From contig NJBH01000002.1 in the NCBI GenBank assembly GCA_005223125.1, forward strand, positions 124,001-188,000: a stretch of DNA of 64,000 bases, given 5' to 3'. The DNA is from Promethearchaeota archaeon Loki_b32 (GTDB lineage Archaea > Asgardarchaeota > Lokiarchaeia > Sigyniarchaeales > SOKP01). A program made the position numbers and the translations under genes. The notes beneath the pieces were generated by a model, which made no database searches, was not told where the DNA came from, and saw only the letters and a list, made by a program, of their open reading frames with translations. Of this stretch, positions 1-13,707 are shown piece after piece (positions within the stretch are counted from its first letter, which is position 1; each line of letters begins with the position of its first letter).

Positions 1-1830
1 TTCTATAATTTCATCAATATCTTTCTCTTCTTCTCTCAATGCGAGATATTCTAATTTTTTATTTATTGTTTCTAGATTTTGCTGTCTTTCTGAAATTTCA
101 GATTTAAAATCTCCCATTTGCTTCTTCAAATTTTCTATAAGCATAAATAATCGATTTTTTTCTTTCTCAGGTGCGCCTTCTCCTATCATGTAGGGGGTAT
201 TGATAAAATGGAATTTTCTTTGAGAATAAATATTATAGGTGTACCCATCTTGGCAATAAATTCTAGAATAAGGGGCATCTTCTAAAAATAATTCCTTTTC
301 TTCAAAAGTATTCGCGAAATAAAAATTATGCATCATTAAATTCATTAAATCTTCAATTGTTTCTGAAGGAAGTGATTGGGGGCACACTTCTAACAAGTCT
401 GACCAATCTCGTAATCCTTTTTTTCCCTTTAATACATAATTTTTTCGAGGACTTAAAATAATTGCATCTGATTTTAAATCTCTATTGATTTTTTCAGCAA
501 TCCTGCCGTGTTTTTCATCAACAACTATACCTGTTTTATATGAAGCTAAAATATTTTCAATATATTCTTGCCATCTTTCAGTTCCTTGTTTAAAATCCAA
601 AGTCTCATATAATAATTCAGAGTTGATATCTCTTTGTTTTAAGGCATTTTGAACCTTGAAGATATCAGAAGGAATATCAAATTTCTTTTGTTCTAATTCT
701 TTTAATTTTTTATTATACTCGCGATATTCTCTTTGGATAATTACCAAGTTTGCCTTTATTTCATCTAACTTTTGTTCTTTTTGCTCTTTTTCTTCTTGAA
801 TGAATAATTGATCAGATATCTCTGAAAGTTCTATATTAAGATTTTGTAAATATGAGATAACAACTTCGTATTTATCTTTATAATTTCTTATCTCATATTC
901 CATATCATAGACTTCTTGTTGTACTTTATCCTTCTCTTCTTTTTGGGATTGGAATTTTTCTTCTATATTAGTGATTTTAGTTTTATTGTTTTTTATCTCA
1001 TTTCTTAATCTTTCAATATCTTCCTTTAACTTTTCATTCTCTTCATAAATACTTATAAAATCTTTTTGGTTATCATCAAAACTATTAAATGTAAAATGGA
1101 TTTTTGCTTTAAGTTCCTTTATTTGAAGTTCTGCCAAATACCTCTCAAACTCAACCTTTTTTTGATATCTTTTGTAAGTTGCTTCAATATTTTGGAATTT
1201 TATATAAAACTCCCTTAATTTATCATTTGCTTCATCTAATTTCTTGTCAGCCTCATCAAGCTCATTTCTTGTTATTTTAACCTTTTCTTTATAATCTTCG
1301 ATTCCAATAAATTTTGAAACTGCATTATATCGTTCTTTCGGCGATTTTTGAGTCCATATTGCGGTCTGTTGATCATCAATAAAAATAAGAGGGTCTTTCC
1401 ATTCTCCGAAATTTTTTAACTCTTCTTTAGTAATTTTTTTTTCCTCTCCTTTAATTCTTATATAACGTCTATTCCTCTTTTTCTTACCTTTAAAGGCCTC
1501 AAGACCTATAGTTATTTCTTCGTCAATTGGATAGATATTTAGGGCATCTGGGCCTGTATTTAATACAGCTAATTCAATTTTAGCATGATTCTTATAGACT
1601 TTACTTTTAGTACCCCCTTCTTCAATTTCCTCATAAGTAAAAAATTCATTATCTCGTTCAATTTTTCTTCCTAAAACATACTGTACTGCATTAAGGATGT
1701 GTGACTTACCTGAACCGCTACTTCCAGTAACATAGCAACGATCACTGAGATCTCCGAAGGAAATAATCGTATTTTTATGACTTCCAAAATTTTGTAAAAA
1801 TAATTGTTTTAGTATAGGATAACTACCCAT
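1..1830 (-). CDS. SMC-family ATPase, N-terminal 610 residues (runs off left edge)
   Basis: Partial gene reading leftwards out of the window. The first residues show an ABC/SMC head: Walker A GSSGSGKS at residues 36-43, and a Q-loop/R-loop-like stretch around residues 150-175 (IDDQQTAIWTQKSPKER). A long charged coiled coil follows (about 180-390), then a region of about 150 residues (about 390-545) that resembles both halves of an SMC hinge, then the returning coil. The C-terminal head with signature motif and Walker B lies outside. The arms imply a full length near 950-1050 aa, shorter than canonical chromosomal SMC. The start is ATG at 1830 with GAGGAGGA just upstream, and it overlaps the end of the preceding KITE-like gene by 8 bp. 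Third gene of a kleisin-KITE-SMC operon, in the order of Wadjet JetA-B-C. SMC family membership is well supported; the JetC, MksB or Smc5/6-like subtype is inference. Confidence 0.8.
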   Translation of the reverse strand, partial: MGSYPILKQLFLQNFGSHKNTIISFGDLSDRCYVTGSSGSGKSHILNAVQYVLGRKIERDNEFFTYEEIEEGGTKSKVYKNHAKIELAVLNTGPDALNIYPIDEEITIGLEAFKGKKKRNRRYIRIKGEEKKITKEELKNFGEWKDPLIFIDDQQTAIWTQKSPKERYNAVSKFIGIEDYKEKVKITRNELDEADKKLDEANDKLREFYIKFQNIEATYKRYQKKVEFERYLAELQIKELKAKIHFTFNSFDDNQKDFISIYEENEKLKEDIERLRNEIKNNKTKITNIEEKFQSQKEEKDKVQQEVYDMEYEIRNYKDKYEVVISYLQNLNIELSEISDQLFIQEEKEQKEQKLDEIKANLVIIQREYREYNKKLKELEQKKFDIPSDIFKVQNALKQRDINSELLYETLDFKQGTERWQEYIENILASYKTGIVVDEKHGRIAEKINRDLKSDAIILSPRKNYVLKGKKGLRDWSDLLEVCPQSLPSETIEDLMNLMMHNFYFANTFEEKELFLEDAPYSRIYCQDGYTYNIYSQRKFHFINTPYMIGEGAPEKEKNRLFMLIENLKKQMGDFKSEISERQQNLETINKKLEYLALREEEKDIDEIIE

Positions 1831-2494
1831 TATTAGGTTCCTCCTCTTTCTTTTGTTGAATTACATCCATCACACTTAATTGTCTAGTGGTTGGTTTAAG
1901 TATTTTCCTCAATTCTAAATAATCTTTAGGCAAATAGGGTTCTAAATTAATATCAGTATATTCTTCATCTATTTCTCTTAATATACGTTTAAGCATTTCT
2001 GGAGAAATACAGGCTTTTAAGACTGTTGTAGGGTGGTATATTATAATATTCTCTCTTTTAATTTCTATTATCCATCGATTGTGTCTTAACTCTCTTAATA
2101 TTCCTCTCAATTCATTCGCACTTATACTGGTTGATTGTAGTTTTTGTTCTAAGAGATCAAAGGTTGGTCCCTGAGAATATTCAAATTCATGAAGAAGAAT
2201 AATACAAACAAGTGCTATTGCCTTATTTGAAATTGCTCGCCTTTTTGATTCATAAGCATCAGGATTTATGATAATAGGAACAATTTTATCTTCAGTCTCG
2301 ACAATTTGAAGAATTCCTTCGAAATATCGATTTGTCGTTATAATAAATTTTTTAATTTCTTCTGTATTGGGGAAATTTAATAATTTTGAACTTATACCTG
2401 GACCTTTAGATGTTCCTTGAAGAATTATAGAAATCTTTCTCAAAGTTTCTTTATCTAATCCCATTTTATCATAATTATATAAATCTTTCTGCAT
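1823..2494 (-). CDS. KITE-like (JetB/MukE-type) tandem winged-helix protein, predicted
   Basis: 223 aa, no transmembrane segment, no catalytic motif. Residues about 85-165 look like winged-helix units: a helical LVCIILLHEF stretch, then ELRGILRELRHNRWI, then a beta wing with IIEIKRENIIIYH. The preceding YFEGILQIVETED stretch also recalls MukE/JetB-type proteins. The start codon overlaps the stop of the upstream gene (TAATG) and its own stop overlaps the SMC-like start, so translation is probably coupled. Size (JetB and MksE are about 200-250 aa) and position between a kleisin-sized gene and an SMC-type ATPase suggest it binds the kleisin, as ScpB, MukE and Nse1/Nse3 do. The assignment rests mainly on context and predicted fold, not on recognisable sequence identity. 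Confidence 0.5.
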   Translation of the reverse strand: MQKDLYNYDKMGLDKETLRKISIILQGTSKGPGISSKLLNFPNTEEIKKFIITTNRYFEGILQIVETEDKIVPIIINPDAYESKRRAISNKAIALVCIILLHEFEYSQGPTFDLLEQKLQSTSISANELRGILRELRHNRWIIEIKRENIIIYHPTTVLKACISPEMLKRILREIDEEYTDINLEPYLPKDYLELRKILKPTTRQLSVMDVIQQKKEEEPNNG

Positions 2495-3858
2495 TAATGT
2501 CCCTCCATTATTTTTTCATCAATTATATTATATTTTCTAGCAGTAAATTTTTCAATATATCTTTTGGAATCATTAATTATACGAAATTTGTTTTCAAGTT
2601 GGATTTTCTGTTCAAGAGATAGAGTATAAAACATTAATAAGTTTTCTAGAAAAGTACGAGGTTTTTTATTCTTTACGATTTGGTAATCTTCCTCTGGATT
2701 AAATTTAATTGCTTTCTTTAACAGTTCTTCCTTTAACGGAATAAGATCTGATTTTTCCACCACATTTTCAATAAAAGATTTTTCCTCCAAAATAGAGCTT
2801 GGAGCTTCGGGTAATTCTTCAAATTCCGTATCTTCTACTTTTCTTAGAACATTGATTAACGCTCTTTTTACATAATAAGAATTGATTTTCATAGGATATT
2901 GTACTGGAATAGCACAAGTATTACAATTAAAAAATATCTCTTGCCAATTTTTATTGGTAAAATTATTGAGAATAAAATCTTGCATTTTAATAAAGGGAGT
3001 CTCTAATAGCCCACCTCTTGATTTTGCCAATTTAAAGTCGTATTTTGCAGAAGCTATATTTAATAATTGAATGACCGCATCAAATATGCTAGTGCTAATT
3101 TGAACATGATGTTGAATAGTCAGACTTGAATTTCCCAATTCATCCTTATTTTGAAATTCTAAAATTTGATCTATTAATTTATGAATTTCACGGATTTTTT
3201 CATCGATATCGGGATCTTCTAAAATAATATTTCCTTCTCGTTTTAAATTTTCTACAAAATCTTTTAATGCATTAATTAATCCATAAATCCAATTCAATTC
3301 TAACCCGTATTGTTCAAAACTTATAAAAGAACGTATCATTTCAACCATAACAAATAAATCCTCGAAAATTCCATAACGCTTCATTGCGATTGTTTCTAAC
3401 TTGAGTTTTTGGTAAGTATGAACGAGAAATTTTCCCATAGAAGTAAGTTTTAATATCTCCCCAATATTTTGAAGAGGGCTTAAAATGGATCTTCCTGTAA
3501 GTTTGGATAAGAGATCTTCAAATTTTTCCCATGAAATAGATTCAAAATCTTTGCAAAAACCTTCGAATATTGAATATTTAGATTGTTCTCCTTCAAAACT
3601 TCTCTTCATTCCAATATAGAATAAAATTTTCATTGCTGTATTTAAATCCTCTTGATTGGAAAATTTCCCCATATTTTTTCCAAAGGATAATAACATTTTA
3701 TCAGCAGCTTTTGATTCATGAGAATCACATGACATAACTTCATCGATACTTATTTTTGGAATAAGTTTCCTTAAACTATCTTGAGTTTCTTTTGAGAGAA
3801 AAAAACTGTTCTTTTTTGATTCAATTTCATTTTGGGTATTTTCTATATTTTCTTTCAT
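2494..3858 (-). CDS. Kleisin-like (JetA/MukF-type) protein, predicted
   Basis: 454 aa, largely helical and rich in Lys/Glu, no TM segment. The N-terminal third could hold a winged helix (about residues 70-160); the middle is a helical bundle (about 180-300). The C-terminal part contains a short FFNCNTCAIPVQYP segment and ends with a helical, winged-helix-like region. It starts 52 bp after the end of rad50 on the same strand and is first of a three-gene overlapping set (kleisin-size, KITE-size, SMC). JetA and MksF are of similar length and occupy the same position. I do not recognise it by direct sequence motif, so the kleisin role is inferred from the operon. An Nse4-like kleisin of an Smc5/6-like complex is an alternative. 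Confidence 0.45.
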   Translation of the reverse strand: MKENIENTQNEIESKKNSFFLSKETQDSLRKLIPKISIDEVMSCDSHESKAADKMLLSFGKNMGKFSNQEDLNTAMKILFYIGMKRSFEGEQSKYSIFEGFCKDFESISWEKFEDLLSKLTGRSILSPLQNIGEILKLTSMGKFLVHTYQKLKLETIAMKRYGIFEDLFVMVEMIRSFISFEQYGLELNWIYGLINALKDFVENLKREGNIILEDPDIDEKIREIHKLIDQILEFQNKDELGNSSLTIQHHVQISTSIFDAVIQLLNIASAKYDFKLAKSRGGLLETPFIKMQDFILNNFTNKNWQEIFFNCNTCAIPVQYPMKINSYYVKRALINVLRKVEDTEFEELPEAPSSILEEKSFIENVVEKSDLIPLKEELLKKAIKFNPEEDYQIVKNKKPRTFLENLLMFYTLSLEQKIQLENKFRIINDSKRYIEKFTARKYNIIDEKIMEGH

Positions 3859-10791: not shown

Positions 10792-12270
10792 TTACATATA
10801 ATTGCTATATGCTGTAGGAGGTGTAATATCTCTACCTTTCAATTCTCCCATTATTTTTCCTACTTTTTTTGATACTGAGAGTGTAACGGGCATTCTTTTA
10901 CAAAAATCTGTGCTATTCCAGTCTAATTTTGTTAAATTGATTATATCTCTTGCTAATATTTCAGTATCACTATCACTTTTTTCTACAATTACTTCAATAG
11001 GTTTTGGTATCATACTACCTGGATATGTATCAAGACAAGGAATGTAACCAGTTGTATAAAGATTAAAGACTTTTTTATTATTGGAATTTCTTTCAAATAC
11101 AGAACCACGAGCTATAGGATAATCTGTTGAGGTAATTGCATTAAAATGACAATATTCTTTAATATGAATAAAATCTTGGATTTCAATATTTTTTGTTGAT
11201 TTTAAAAATCCTTCATTTTCTTCCTCAGTATATTCCGATTTTTTATGTACAACAATTCTATTAGGCTTACTATTATGGTGTTGTCTTTTATATAAGTTAA
11301 TAGCTTGGGACAAAATATCTTTTGCTTGTTCTTCTGTAAGATTGGTTCTTCTAATATCTTCTTCATGTTCAACTTTTAATTCTAAACCTCTAGCCACTTG
11401 AGAGTCACCAGTCCTCATATAGACCTGAGCTATAGCAGCTTTAATAACTACACTATCTCTTTTATTAATATCATAGTAAAATGAAATTCCAACATGAACA
11501 GTTTCAGGATTTAAATCAGCTAATTTCCAGGGAATACCTGAAAATTTATAATATTGGGCAACAACATAGTTCCAAGCAATTGAAGCAGGATCTTCCAAAT
11601 TCCCTCCTTTGAATTCCAATGTTTGAGGAAGCATTAATTGTGTTCGCAAATTCAACTCATATCCTAGAACTTTTATATAATTATGGAAATCATAAAATAT
11701 TGGACGTTCACTTTGATCCATTGAAGCTATTCTCTGTAAATCTCGAAAATTCCGATCGCTTAGTCGGATTTTCTTATCTTTTGTAAATGGATCTGAACAA
11801 GCTTCTAGAATTTTTTTAGGAATAGTAATAATAATAACAGGTCTTGGAAGATTTTGCCCACTCAAATCTTTCAGAATCTGCTTTATATGTTCTGAAAATT
11901 CAACAATTCTTTCATTTCGGTTAGCAATATTAAGAATTTTTTCAATATTTTGTGAAGAAATTTCTTGACAATAATTATCATCTTTCTCCATATAAAATCC
12001 TAACGGACCATCTTGATATAATCCTGGAAAATCAAGATTTCTTATATTTGAATTAGGATATGTCACACCTTCTATTGAATATTGTAATAAAGAAAGAAAA
12101 TCAATTGCCGCATTAATTGATTTTTTCGATCCAATTATTCCTATAGGAATTCTTAAATTATTATGTTCCAATCCATTTGGTTTATAATTTAATAATCCTA
12201 CTCTTGGATCAGCACATGTAGTTTTATCTCTGAAAATTAAATCCGGTTCTGGCACTAAAAACGATCTCAT
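10792..12270 (-). CDS. Short prokaryotic Argonaute (MID-PIWI), catalytically inactive
   Basis: 492 aa, the length of a short pAgo lacking N and PAZ domains. The N-terminus (CADPRVGLLNYKP; PGLYQDGPLGFY) matches the usual opening of short pAgos. The MID region includes LRTQLMLPQTLEF near residues 215-230. In PIWI the first catalytic Asp strand reads VHVGISFYYD (Ser at the Asp position) and the VVHKKSEYTEEE strand lacks the second Asp, so it should bind guide and target without cutting. A strong SD (GAGGAG) precedes ATG 12270. It lies 15 bp after a nuclease-APAZ gene. The pair matches SPARDA, in which guide-directed target recognition activates the associated nuclease. Family call firm; subtype inferred from the partner. 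Confidence 0.88.
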   Translation of the reverse strand: MRSFLVPEPDLIFRDKTTCADPRVGLLNYKPNGLEHNNLRIPIGIIGSKKSINAAIDFLSLLQYSIEGVTYPNSNIRNLDFPGLYQDGPLGFYMEKDDNYCQEISSQNIEKILNIANRNERIVEFSEHIKQILKDLSGQNLPRPVIIITIPKKILEACSDPFTKDKKIRLSDRNFRDLQRIASMDQSERPIFYDFHNYIKVLGYELNLRTQLMLPQTLEFKGGNLEDPASIAWNYVVAQYYKFSGIPWKLADLNPETVHVGISFYYDINKRDSVVIKAAIAQVYMRTGDSQVARGLELKVEHEEDIRRTNLTEEQAKDILSQAINLYKRQHHNSKPNRIVVHKKSEYTEEENEGFLKSTKNIEIQDFIHIKEYCHFNAITSTDYPIARGSVFERNSNNKKVFNLYTTGYIPCLDTYPGSMIPKPIEVIVEKSDSDTEILARDIINLTKLDWNSTDFCKRMPVTLSVSKKVGKIMGELKGRDITPPTAYSNYM

Positions 12271-12285
12271 TTTTTATCTCCTCTT

Positions 12286-13707
12286 TTAATTAAAAAATTT
12301 ATCTATTCTTGTATCATTAACTCCGATTGTTTTAGAGCTCCAATTGACTGTATGCTCCATCAAGGGCTTTATTATAAATTCATTAAACCAGGGATCTTTA
12401 TCTCGGCTAAAATAATCACTAGTTAAGAAATCGCTCCAAAATTCTAACCTAAGTCTCCAACTTGGATTTCTATTCCATTTTGGATTCAAATACTTTTTAT
12501 GTAGATTACTTGAATGGTCTCCTGTTATCGTATTTACACCATTTCTAGTAAAAATAAATCTAGGCCAAATAAATAAACCCATTTTACCATCATATTCATC
12601 TAATCGAATGAAAACAGATTTATGCTCAACATAATACAGTGTTCCATCTGGGCTATAAATTGGTTTAGTTACTGTTTTAATTTTTCTATTGGGTAGATTA
12701 ATTTTAATTGGTTCTACACTGCCCTTTGGTTTATCATCAATAGGTTCGTCATAAGCAAAGAAAAAATCACTCTCCCATCTTCTTAAACCTTTACACCACA
12801 AATATCTTCGTAATGATGTATAAAGTAATTCCCTTTTCCTCTGAATATCAAGCCTATCTGTATCATGGTCATATACTGGTCCTGAAATATGGGGTCTAAG
12901 AACATTCAGATTCTTCTCAAATGACCTTACAACTGGTTCAGGTGCTTCAAATCGTGGAACAACAAATTCAGGTAACCTTTGCTTTTCTTCAGATCTAACT
13001 CTGTCAATTATAGTCTTTTTAAGTTTGAATTTGGATTTAACTTGCCAAAATTTTTGCGGATATTGTAATTCCATAAAATTTAATATAAGATTGTCCTTTT
13101 CTCTCGTTGGATCTCTTCGATTCTTAATTTCTCTTAACAATCTTTTATGCTGTGAATTTAGATTTTTTCTAAAAATATCTTCTCTATCTCTTACTCGTTC
13201 GACTAAACCAAGTAGGGAACAAACCTTTACATCAGTATTTCTAAAAAACTCTAAAATTTCTGATTCATTAGCGGAATTTAACTTTTCTACTTTTTTCTCA
13301 TCAAAATTTAATCCTTCCTTATTATTAAACCAATTTAAAATTTCTTCCTTTTCTGCTTCCCTTGTTAATACTTTTTTAGTCTGATTTTTTTTATTAAATT
13401 TATTCGCAAAAATTACAAATCTAAATCTTCTTTCAGGTCTTAAAATTAACCAATAATAGAAATAGTCAAATATTTCGTGTCTAAGATTTTCAGATTTAGC
13501 AAAAATCGAGACTTGAGTATTTTTAGCTTCTATCCATAAATTTTCTTTCTTATTATCCATGATAATATCAGATAAAGTCCCCTCATTTAAGGAATTCTTA
13601 GTTAAATGATAACCTTGAGTTTGATAATACCTTATAATGTATTTTTTATATAATTCTGAATTATAATTACGAGCTTCTCTCTCTGATTCAAAATCTTCCC
13701 ATGACAT
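12286..13707 (-). CDS. PD-(D/E)XK nuclease fused to APAZ domain (DREN-APAZ-like)
   Basis: 473 aa. The N-terminus has a restriction-endonuclease-like core: D47 in GTLSDIIMD, then E60-x-K62 in LWIEAKNTQ. This fits a PD-(D/E)XK active site, with no Sir2 or TIR motif. A charged linker (about 150-260) leads to a C-terminal region (about 270-473) rich in Trp/Arg, with KRELLYTSLRRYLW and PSWRLRLEFWSDFL segments, where APAZ domains sit in short pAgo partners. In SPARDA systems this protein forms a heterodimer with the short pAgo and degrades DNA and RNA non-specifically after target recognition. First gene of the pair, divergent from the AAA-type gene at 13906. Nuclease motif is seen; APAZ is inferred from position, length and partner. 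Confidence 0.8.
   Translation of the reverse strand: MSWEDFESEREARNYNSELYKKYIIRYYQTQGYHLTKNSLNEGTLSDIIMDNKKENLWIEAKNTQVSIFAKSENLRHEIFDYFYYWLILRPERRFRFVIFANKFNKKNQTKKVLTREAEKEEILNWFNNKEGLNFDEKKVEKLNSANESEILEFFRNTDVKVCSLLGLVERVRDREDIFRKNLNSQHKRLLREIKNRRDPTREKDNLILNFMELQYPQKFWQVKSKFKLKKTIIDRVRSEEKQRLPEFVVPRFEAPEPVVRSFEKNLNVLRPHISGPVYDHDTDRLDIQRKRELLYTSLRRYLWCKGLRRWESDFFFAYDEPIDDKPKGSVEPIKINLPNRKIKTVTKPIYSPDGTLYYVEHKSVFIRLDEYDGKMGLFIWPRFIFTRNGVNTITGDHSSNLHKKYLNPKWNRNPSWRLRLEFWSDFLTSDYFSRDKDPWFNEFIIKPLMEHTVNWSSKTIGVNDTRIDKFFN

Follow-up and report, generated by a model that had tools for sequence, protein, structure and literature searches.

A Wadjet-like SMC operon of Asgard archaea, putatively coupled to an exchangeable DNA-end-processing module

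The window analysed here, a stretch of 64,000 nucleotides from Promethearchaeota archaeon Loki_b32 (G000, the window genome; 4.13 Mb, 71 contigs; C21:124001-188000), begins with an operon which probably (at a rough probability of 0.6) represents a new archaeal variant of the Wadjet-like JetABCD defence systems, built around a structural maintenance of chromosomes (SMC) ATPase and coupled to an exchangeable module for the processing of DNA ends. A reading made from the window before any database was searched (the sequence-only reading) had placed three overlapping genes here, encoding proteins of 454 and 223 amino acids (aa) and an SMC protein, and had named a JetD-like gene after the SMC as a mark of Wadjet. 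All four genes were found, the first three on the minus strand of the window and the SMC gene running off base 1. The 454-aa and 223-aa genes overlap by 1 base, and the 223-aa and SMC genes by 8 bases. The parts to the left of base 1 were taken from locus L011, the overlap of which with the window was checked and was identical. The proteins were investigated by library scans (PADLOC, Pfam and NCBIfam), a PDB profile search, profile-profile alignment with hhalign and AlphaFold2 (AF2) models. Distribution was counted among 227 genomes of the Asgard phylum and, for the genus, among 19.

The fourth gene was identified as encoding a JetD-like protein based upon matches to PADLOC JetD1 (4e-16) and Pfam JetD_C (24.5 bits, cut-off 22). 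Alignment with two bacterial type I JetD proteins using hhalign gave an E value of 1.2e-13 over 330 columns, and 3.1e-11 and 3.2e-8 when these were used singly. The PADLOC JetD match extended to the Toprim-bearing D proteins of G066, G017 and G074 (3.5e-17, 4.3e-11 and 3.2e-11, respectively). The Toprim glutamate and DxD motif are present in four of five D proteins, and the motif DYDLGG resembles GDIDLGG of bacterial JetD. Judged by profile alignment, the Asgard D protein is closer to type I JetD than type III JetD is. An additional N-terminal stretch containing Cys and His residues was noted by eye. An alternative, that D is a cleaving or topoisomerase subunit of the Topo VI-A/Spo11 kind and not a JetD nuclease, draws on the homology of its Toprim domain to subunit A of topoisomerase VI (Topo VI; hhalign 6.9e-5; Pfam TOP6A-Spo11_Toprim 0.0039, below the cut-off). 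It is highly improbable, since type I JetD matches far better, the DYDLGG motif resembles that of bacterial JetD, and a genuine Topo VI A reaches 3.9e-59 with the same Pfam model. One further match of the JetD profile, in G079, was rejected as JetD; it is a Topo VI A beside a Topo VI B (Pfam 3.9e-59 and 3.7e-53).

The whole SMC gene (C21:122939-125830) encodes 963 aa. The Walker A motif and hinge-like middle read from the window were both borne out, and the C-terminal head, on which that reading had been made to depend, is present. Its motifs are GSSGSGKS (Walker A), NFSKGE (signature) and FSVWDEFD (Walker B), and intact Walker A, signature and Walker B motifs are present in all five SMC homologs. 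Pfam SMC_N and AAA_23 scored above cut-off, and the best among the 60 PDB matches listed was an Smc (2.7e-25). The hinge region matched that of type I JetC with an E value of 2e-6 for the paired profile (7e-4 and 1.4e-6 singly). The same comparison against two other SMC proteins and the Rad50 of G000 gave 0.0032-0.17, or up to 0.19 with type III JetC included, and ten shuffled controls gave 0.11-0.81. The PADLOC JetC matches of the SMC (best 2.1e-12) were left unused; they lie partly in coiled coil (residues 135-455) and were outscored by mad3 (2.2e-16).

A full-length match to the SMC profile (1116-1516 bits) served as the criterion for counting the operon. Matches of any kind occurred in 94 of the 227 genomes and full-length ones in five only, namely G000, G017 (of the same genus), G054, G066 and G074; the next best match was partial (89.6 bits), and the rest were not counted. 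The genes A-B-C-D are co-directional in all five loci, with D represented by a kinase fusion in G054. The same genes in the same order in five genomes indicate more than a chance arrangement. Among the five loci, G000 and G017 have the most similar Jet proteins (62-72% identity). Homologs of the 454-aa protein were identified in three other genomes (phmmer 1.5e-220, 3.7e-51 and 8.4e-113), and the JetA-like gene of G074 was assigned by position, its product giving no sequence match to that of the window. A scan of genome contigs with query-derived patterns, which detects close relatives only, returned one locus (L019). Among viral contigs, D gave no match and C a single weak SMC match (64 residues), and the plasmid search yielded two records (E 0.03 and 0.2), both of them JetD genes of annotated JetA-D-type operons.

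Table 1. Coordinates of the operon, the upstream module and the neighbouring genes (window positions unless a contig or locus is named)
Feature	Position	Strand	Remarks
JetA-like protein, 454 aa, candidate kleisin	2494..3858	-	First gene of the A-B-C-D order
JetB-like protein, 223 aa, candidate KITE	1823..2494	-	Homologs in 4/4 other loci
JetC-like SMC ATPase, first 610 of 963 aa	1..1830	-	Remainder lies left of base 1, as far as C21:122939
JetD-like protein, 494 aa	C21:121474-122958		Outside the window; directly after the SMC gene, 20-base overlap
Rad50 with zinc hook, 895 aa	3911..6598	-	Pfam AAA_23 2.3e-24, Rad50_zn_hook 1e-9; CPVC at residue 448
Mre11 nuclease, 373 aa	6579..7700	-	Pfam Metallophos 6.7e-14
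HerA translocase, 548 aa	7707..9353	-	Pfam DUF87 4.3e-36
NurA nuclease, 420 aa	9337..10599	-	Pfam NurA 1.8e-11
Short prokaryotic Argonaute, then restriction endonuclease (REase)-type partner	10792-13707	-	PADLOC pAgo_I 1.6e-115; Aga_REase_Archaea 6.6e-25; adjoins NurA
TPR protein, sacsin/gyrase-B-like HATPase, PD-T4-7, 235-aa protein	C21:116945-121464 (L011:4945-9464)		After JetD; PD-T4-7 2.8e-33; 235-aa protein with weak peptidase M78-type match
JetD N-terminal part fused to Ser/Thr kinase domain in place of Toprim (G054)	L022:12610-14364		

The products of the first two genes are candidates for the kleisin and for the kleisin-interacting tandem winged-helix element (KITE), respectively. The 454-aa protein had been called kleisin-sized, and its size agrees; a kleisin fold was not shown, the AF2 model having a mean predicted local distance difference test (pLDDT) score of 40, probably because just two sequences were usable. 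A resemblance of parts of this protein to winged helices and kleisin ends was a by-eye impression borne out by no analysis. The KITE-like character proposed for the 223-aa protein held for its C-terminal half, where residues 83-166 were modelled as a winged helix (best Z 11.4, to MepR; root-mean-square deviation 1.4 over 68 residues); the N-terminal half was modelled at low confidence, as H-H-H-E-E. A structure search with the C-terminal winged helix, the N-terminal half lying outside the query, returned no KITE fold among the matches listed.

Several observations weigh against the interpretation as a Wadjet-like operon coupled to the module. Neither the 454-aa nor the 223-aa protein matched a JetA or JetB model or a PDB chain in PADLOC, Pfam, NCBIfam, PDB profile or hhalign comparisons. 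The PADLOC models for these two proteins gave no match in G000, G054 or G074, and none for JetB of G066, which was the extent of that scan (JetA of G066 and both proteins of G017 lay outside it). The SMC heads are nearer to canonical SMC and Rad50 than to type I JetC (E 1e-12 to 3e-14 against proteins of the same genome), and the best full-length profile match was another Asgard SMC (locus L068, E 7e-20) and not JetC, which counts against simple descent from bacterial JetC. As for D, Pfam JetD_C scored above cut-off in two of the four Toprim-bearing proteins only (G000 and G066), and a PDB search with the D profile gave Topo VI only, at E values of 0.08 or worse, and no JetD. The PADLOC JetD1 model also matches a Topo VI A subunit (1.2e-12); a JetD1 match alone is therefore not specific and would not suffice. 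In addition, one of the five loci (G054) lacks the end-processing module beside the operon, and the defence function, DNA restriction, is a prediction from the genes.

The silence for A and B is uninformative. In a control that compared type I with type III, JetA gave an E value of 0.16, JetB 0.34 and 0.70, and JetD 0.22 and 0.024. Since these known types fail to recognise each other, the missing matches are no argument against Wadjet. In 78 piecewise comparisons against 13 proteins, with three shuffles each, the lowest real E value was 0.012 and the lowest shuffled one 0.0069, so that nothing rose above noise. Because A and B match no PADLOC type, the system was not filed under types I, II or III. 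The archaeal Wadjet-like system suggested by the sequence-only reading is partly upheld, by JetD and the SMC hinge; the JetA and JetB models remained unmatched.

All four genes of the Rad50-Mre11-HerA-NurA set described in the window were confirmed by Pfam, on the same strand; Rad50, the nearest of them, is separated from the 454-aa gene by 52 bp. The suggested coupling to Mre11-Rad50 was strengthened by the recurrence of such a block in other genomes; in four of the five loci it immediately precedes JetA in the same orientation, at distances of 52, 21, 3 and 119 bp. The idea that the upstream genes form a constant DNA-repair set was not sustained, for the window Rad50 is present in two of the 19 genus genomes (E <= 1e-40), and a second NurA of G000 is located on another contig (C3:8000-8881). 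No second, housekeeping Mre11-Rad50 was found in G000; an Mre11-like gene on C24 (396 aa) was identified as a metallophosphoesterase beside a PHP-domain gene. The Mre11 is 60% identical to the copy of G015, other matches in the genus being 29-38% identical and mostly partial. HerA is 66% and 41%, and NurA 70% and 31%, identical to those of G015 and G066, respectively.

Two versions of the block were recognised, a canonical one in G000 and G066 and a divergent one in G017 and G074. In G066 the order NurA, HerA, Mre11, Rad50-like, JetA, B, C, D is that of the window, and the first three genes are 26-41% identical. The corresponding slot of G017 and G074 contains a protein of 446 or 397 aa, an 813-aa HerA-like ATPase (DUF87 1.2e-6 and 1.6e-5), a metallophosphoesterase of 475 or 471 aa (Metallophos 7.8e-15 and 5.6e-16; profile E of 6e-10 to Mre11), an ATPase of 870 or 871 aa which is weakly Rad50-like (3e-5) and carries no CxxC, and a protein of 238 or 249 aa, respectively. 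Profile comparison of the protein in the NurA position with NurA gave an E value of 0.13, and homology was not shown. The 238/249-aa protein, located between the ATPase and JetA (L074:1870-2586 and L077:16583-17332), is 38% conserved and without a Pfam match, and by eye resembles a regulator of the CARF type whose C-terminal part is a winged helix.

The version of the block does not track the relatedness of the Jet proteins, the closest pair, G000 and G017, having canonical and divergent blocks, respectively. The block of G000 is nearest to that of G015 (47-70% identity; L072, G015:C30:54000-73000), which lies 258 bp before a bacteriophage exclusion (BREX) system (BrxA 5e-24, BrxB 1e-23, BrxC winged helix-turn-helix 9e-10, Eco57I methylase 4e-23). 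The divergent HerA occurs in three of the 227 genomes, twice before JetABCD and once in G073 (L081, C578, at a contig end), where the divergent HerA-like, Mre11-like and ATPase genes and one for a 247-aa protein precede a 934-aa fusion of Cas4-like and HerA-like parts and a beta-CASP protein. Based upon the exchange between loci, these other neighbours and the rarity within the genus, the module is both accessory and portable. The slot before JetA is kept despite the swap, which argues for a function.

The presence of the block beside other gene sets keeps alive a rival explanation, in which JetABCD is Wadjet-like and the NurA-HerA-Mre11-Rad50 block a separate cassette, for defence or repair, which hitch-hikes within the shared defence island. 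Each version also turns up without JetABCD (in G015 and G073), and G054 has JetABC without the block. The TPR and HATPase pair offers a parallel, flanking two Jet loci yet occurring in three genomes without the operon. This explanation is considered rather unlikely given the direct upstream position, with a common strand and short gaps, in four of five loci, and the replacement of the canonical block by its divergent counterpart in the same slot (G000 versus G017). The TPR and HATPase genes beside JetD (G000 and G066) were themselves dropped as a part of the operon, the HATPase being found in 5/227 genomes.

The SMC/Rad50-like heads and the repair-type upstream genes would also fit a repair or chromosome-maintenance complex, with an Smc5/6- or MukBEF-like role, which acts with Mre11-Rad50 on chromosomal breaks and not in defence. 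Such a function is improbable in view of the patchy distribution of the operon (5/227 genomes), the JetD-type Toprim gene within it, and its neighbours. A short Argonaute and its REase partner beside NurA mark the region as a defence island, and PD-T4-7 is located on the other side. G000 also encodes another SMC beside ScpA/ScpB-like genes, recognised by eye, in addition to its second NurA. The relationship to Smc5/6-Nse1/3/4 which had been offered as a second possibility was not supported: there is one SMC gene, its hinge matches type I JetC and not the two other SMCs of G000, and no Nse-like family match appeared in the general scans. Smc5/6 is similar in having SMC proteins with small partners, one of which bears a winged helix, and differs in having two different SMCs, as opposed to a single SMC gene accompanied by a Toprim gene here; the Rad50 encoded upstream has a zinc hook.

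The Wadjet-like operon of G054 carries an unusual D gene, in which approximately 300 N-terminal residues are retained and a kinase domain follows. Overall identity to D of the window genome is 33% in alignment. The kinase domain matched Pfam Pkinase (6.6e-43) and PDB kinases (7e-24), and the Hanks-type motifs HRDLKPKN, DFG and APE are present, as is the catalytic Lys. The best PADLOC match was the defence kinase family PD-T4-6 (2e-42). The fusion is a single case from a genome which is 79% complete. The spacing between JetC and D is wider than elsewhere, and no ATG, GTG or TTG start was located before the homologous N-terminus (CTG 12631, ATT 12643); initiation at ATG 12862 would remove the first ~75 residues. 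An assembly chimera is unlikely, the fusion lying within one open frame. A kinase on the N-terminal part of JetD would, if genuine, separate sensing from cutting and provide a direct route to what JetABC reports.

In bacteria, Wadjet destroys plasmids. Bacterial JetABC is described as extruding DNA and activating JetD on small circles, JetD being the sole effector of Wadjet as described in the same source (PMC10586767). By analogy, the archaeal JetABC would load onto DNA and extrude loops, and on small or foreign DNA it may stall and thereby activate JetD. The Toprim domain of JetD would then cut the DNA, and HerA-NurA together with Mre11-Rad50, presumably in physical contact with the complex, would degrade the new ends. 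In bacteria, the degradation of ends would be the task of general nucleases such as RecBCD, which is not known from these cells. A dedicated end-resection module, if this is correct, would explain the fate of cut DNA in cells without RecBCD, and some archaeal Mre11-Rad50-HerA-NurA operons would be immune and not housekeeping. It may tentatively be proposed, with some doubt, that the eight or nine genes constitute a composite archaeal immune machine, in which a Wadjet-like SMC sensor carries plug-in parts at both ends: one of two end-degrading modules upstream and, downstream, a Toprim nuclease or (in G054) a Ser/Thr kinase mounted on the N-terminal adaptor of JetD. Foreign DNA would be cut and shredded by such a machine; the kinase version would instead convert the sensing of DNA shape into a phosphorylation signal.

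The closest known system is Wadjet type I (JetABCD/MksBEFG/EptABCD), with which the operon shares the A-B-C-D order, overlapping genes, the JetC hinge, and the C-terminal Toprim domain of JetD with its E and DxD. The predicted agreement with JetA-JetB-JetC in order and size holds for the order and for A and B; A, B and D are 454, 223 and 494 aa here versus 474, 202 and 433 aa in a Cohnella plasmid operon. It does not hold for the SMC, which is shorter (963 versus 1135 aa) and has SMC/Rad50-like heads. Further differences from type I are the unrecognisable JetA and JetB, the extra Cys/His stretch of D, the kinase D in one genome and the upstream module. The archaeal NurA-HerA-Mre11-Rad50 resection operon has the identical four genes in identical order, and a linkage of rad50-mre11 to nurA and herA is reported for most hyperthermophilic archaea (PMC2288612). 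In contrast to that operon, the block described here is accessory, exchangeable and located before defence genes, and its divergent version is without the CxxC hook. Lamassu (LmuABC) likewise has an SMC-like sensor with exchangeable effectors, as described in PMC10586767, but other SMC and partner genes; the operon has the Jet order and a JetD-like gene, with some weak LmuB and LmuA matches. A word search of the main text, supplements aside, of PMC11291487 and PMC12988326 (archaeal and Asgard defence) found no mention of Wadjet, HerA, NurA, Rad50, Mre11 or SMC, and neither an Asgard Wadjet, its coupling to HerA, NurA, Mre11 and Rad50, nor a kinase JetD is described in the titles and abstracts returned by searches of the open-licence PMC literature.

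Type III Wadjet was also identified in the phylum, at loci L065 (G067) and L066 (G073), with PADLOC JetC3 matches of 1.7e-63 and 1.3e-111 and JetD3 matches of 3.7e-49 and 2.9e-71, respectively. JetB3 was matched in both genomes, and JetA3 was tested and matched in G073 only. Like the operon of the window, these loci combine an SMC-based JetABC with a Toprim JetD; unlike it, their JetC is ~1490-1507 aa long, similarity of A and B is undetectable, and that of D reaches E values of 0.0089 and 0.053 only. Further SMC genes were observed in passing. The SMC proteins encoded at L068:7178-11968 (G163:C36) and L069 (G145), 990 and 996 aa long, have a middle that is hinge-like; judged by eye, the 251-, 201- and 151-aa products of the genes that follow could represent a kleisin, a partner with a winged helix and a protein with a zinc ribbon. 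In G000 itself another SMC, of 1155 aa, is encoded at L012:2972-8379 (G000:C28) between unrecognised proteins of 418 and 215 aa.

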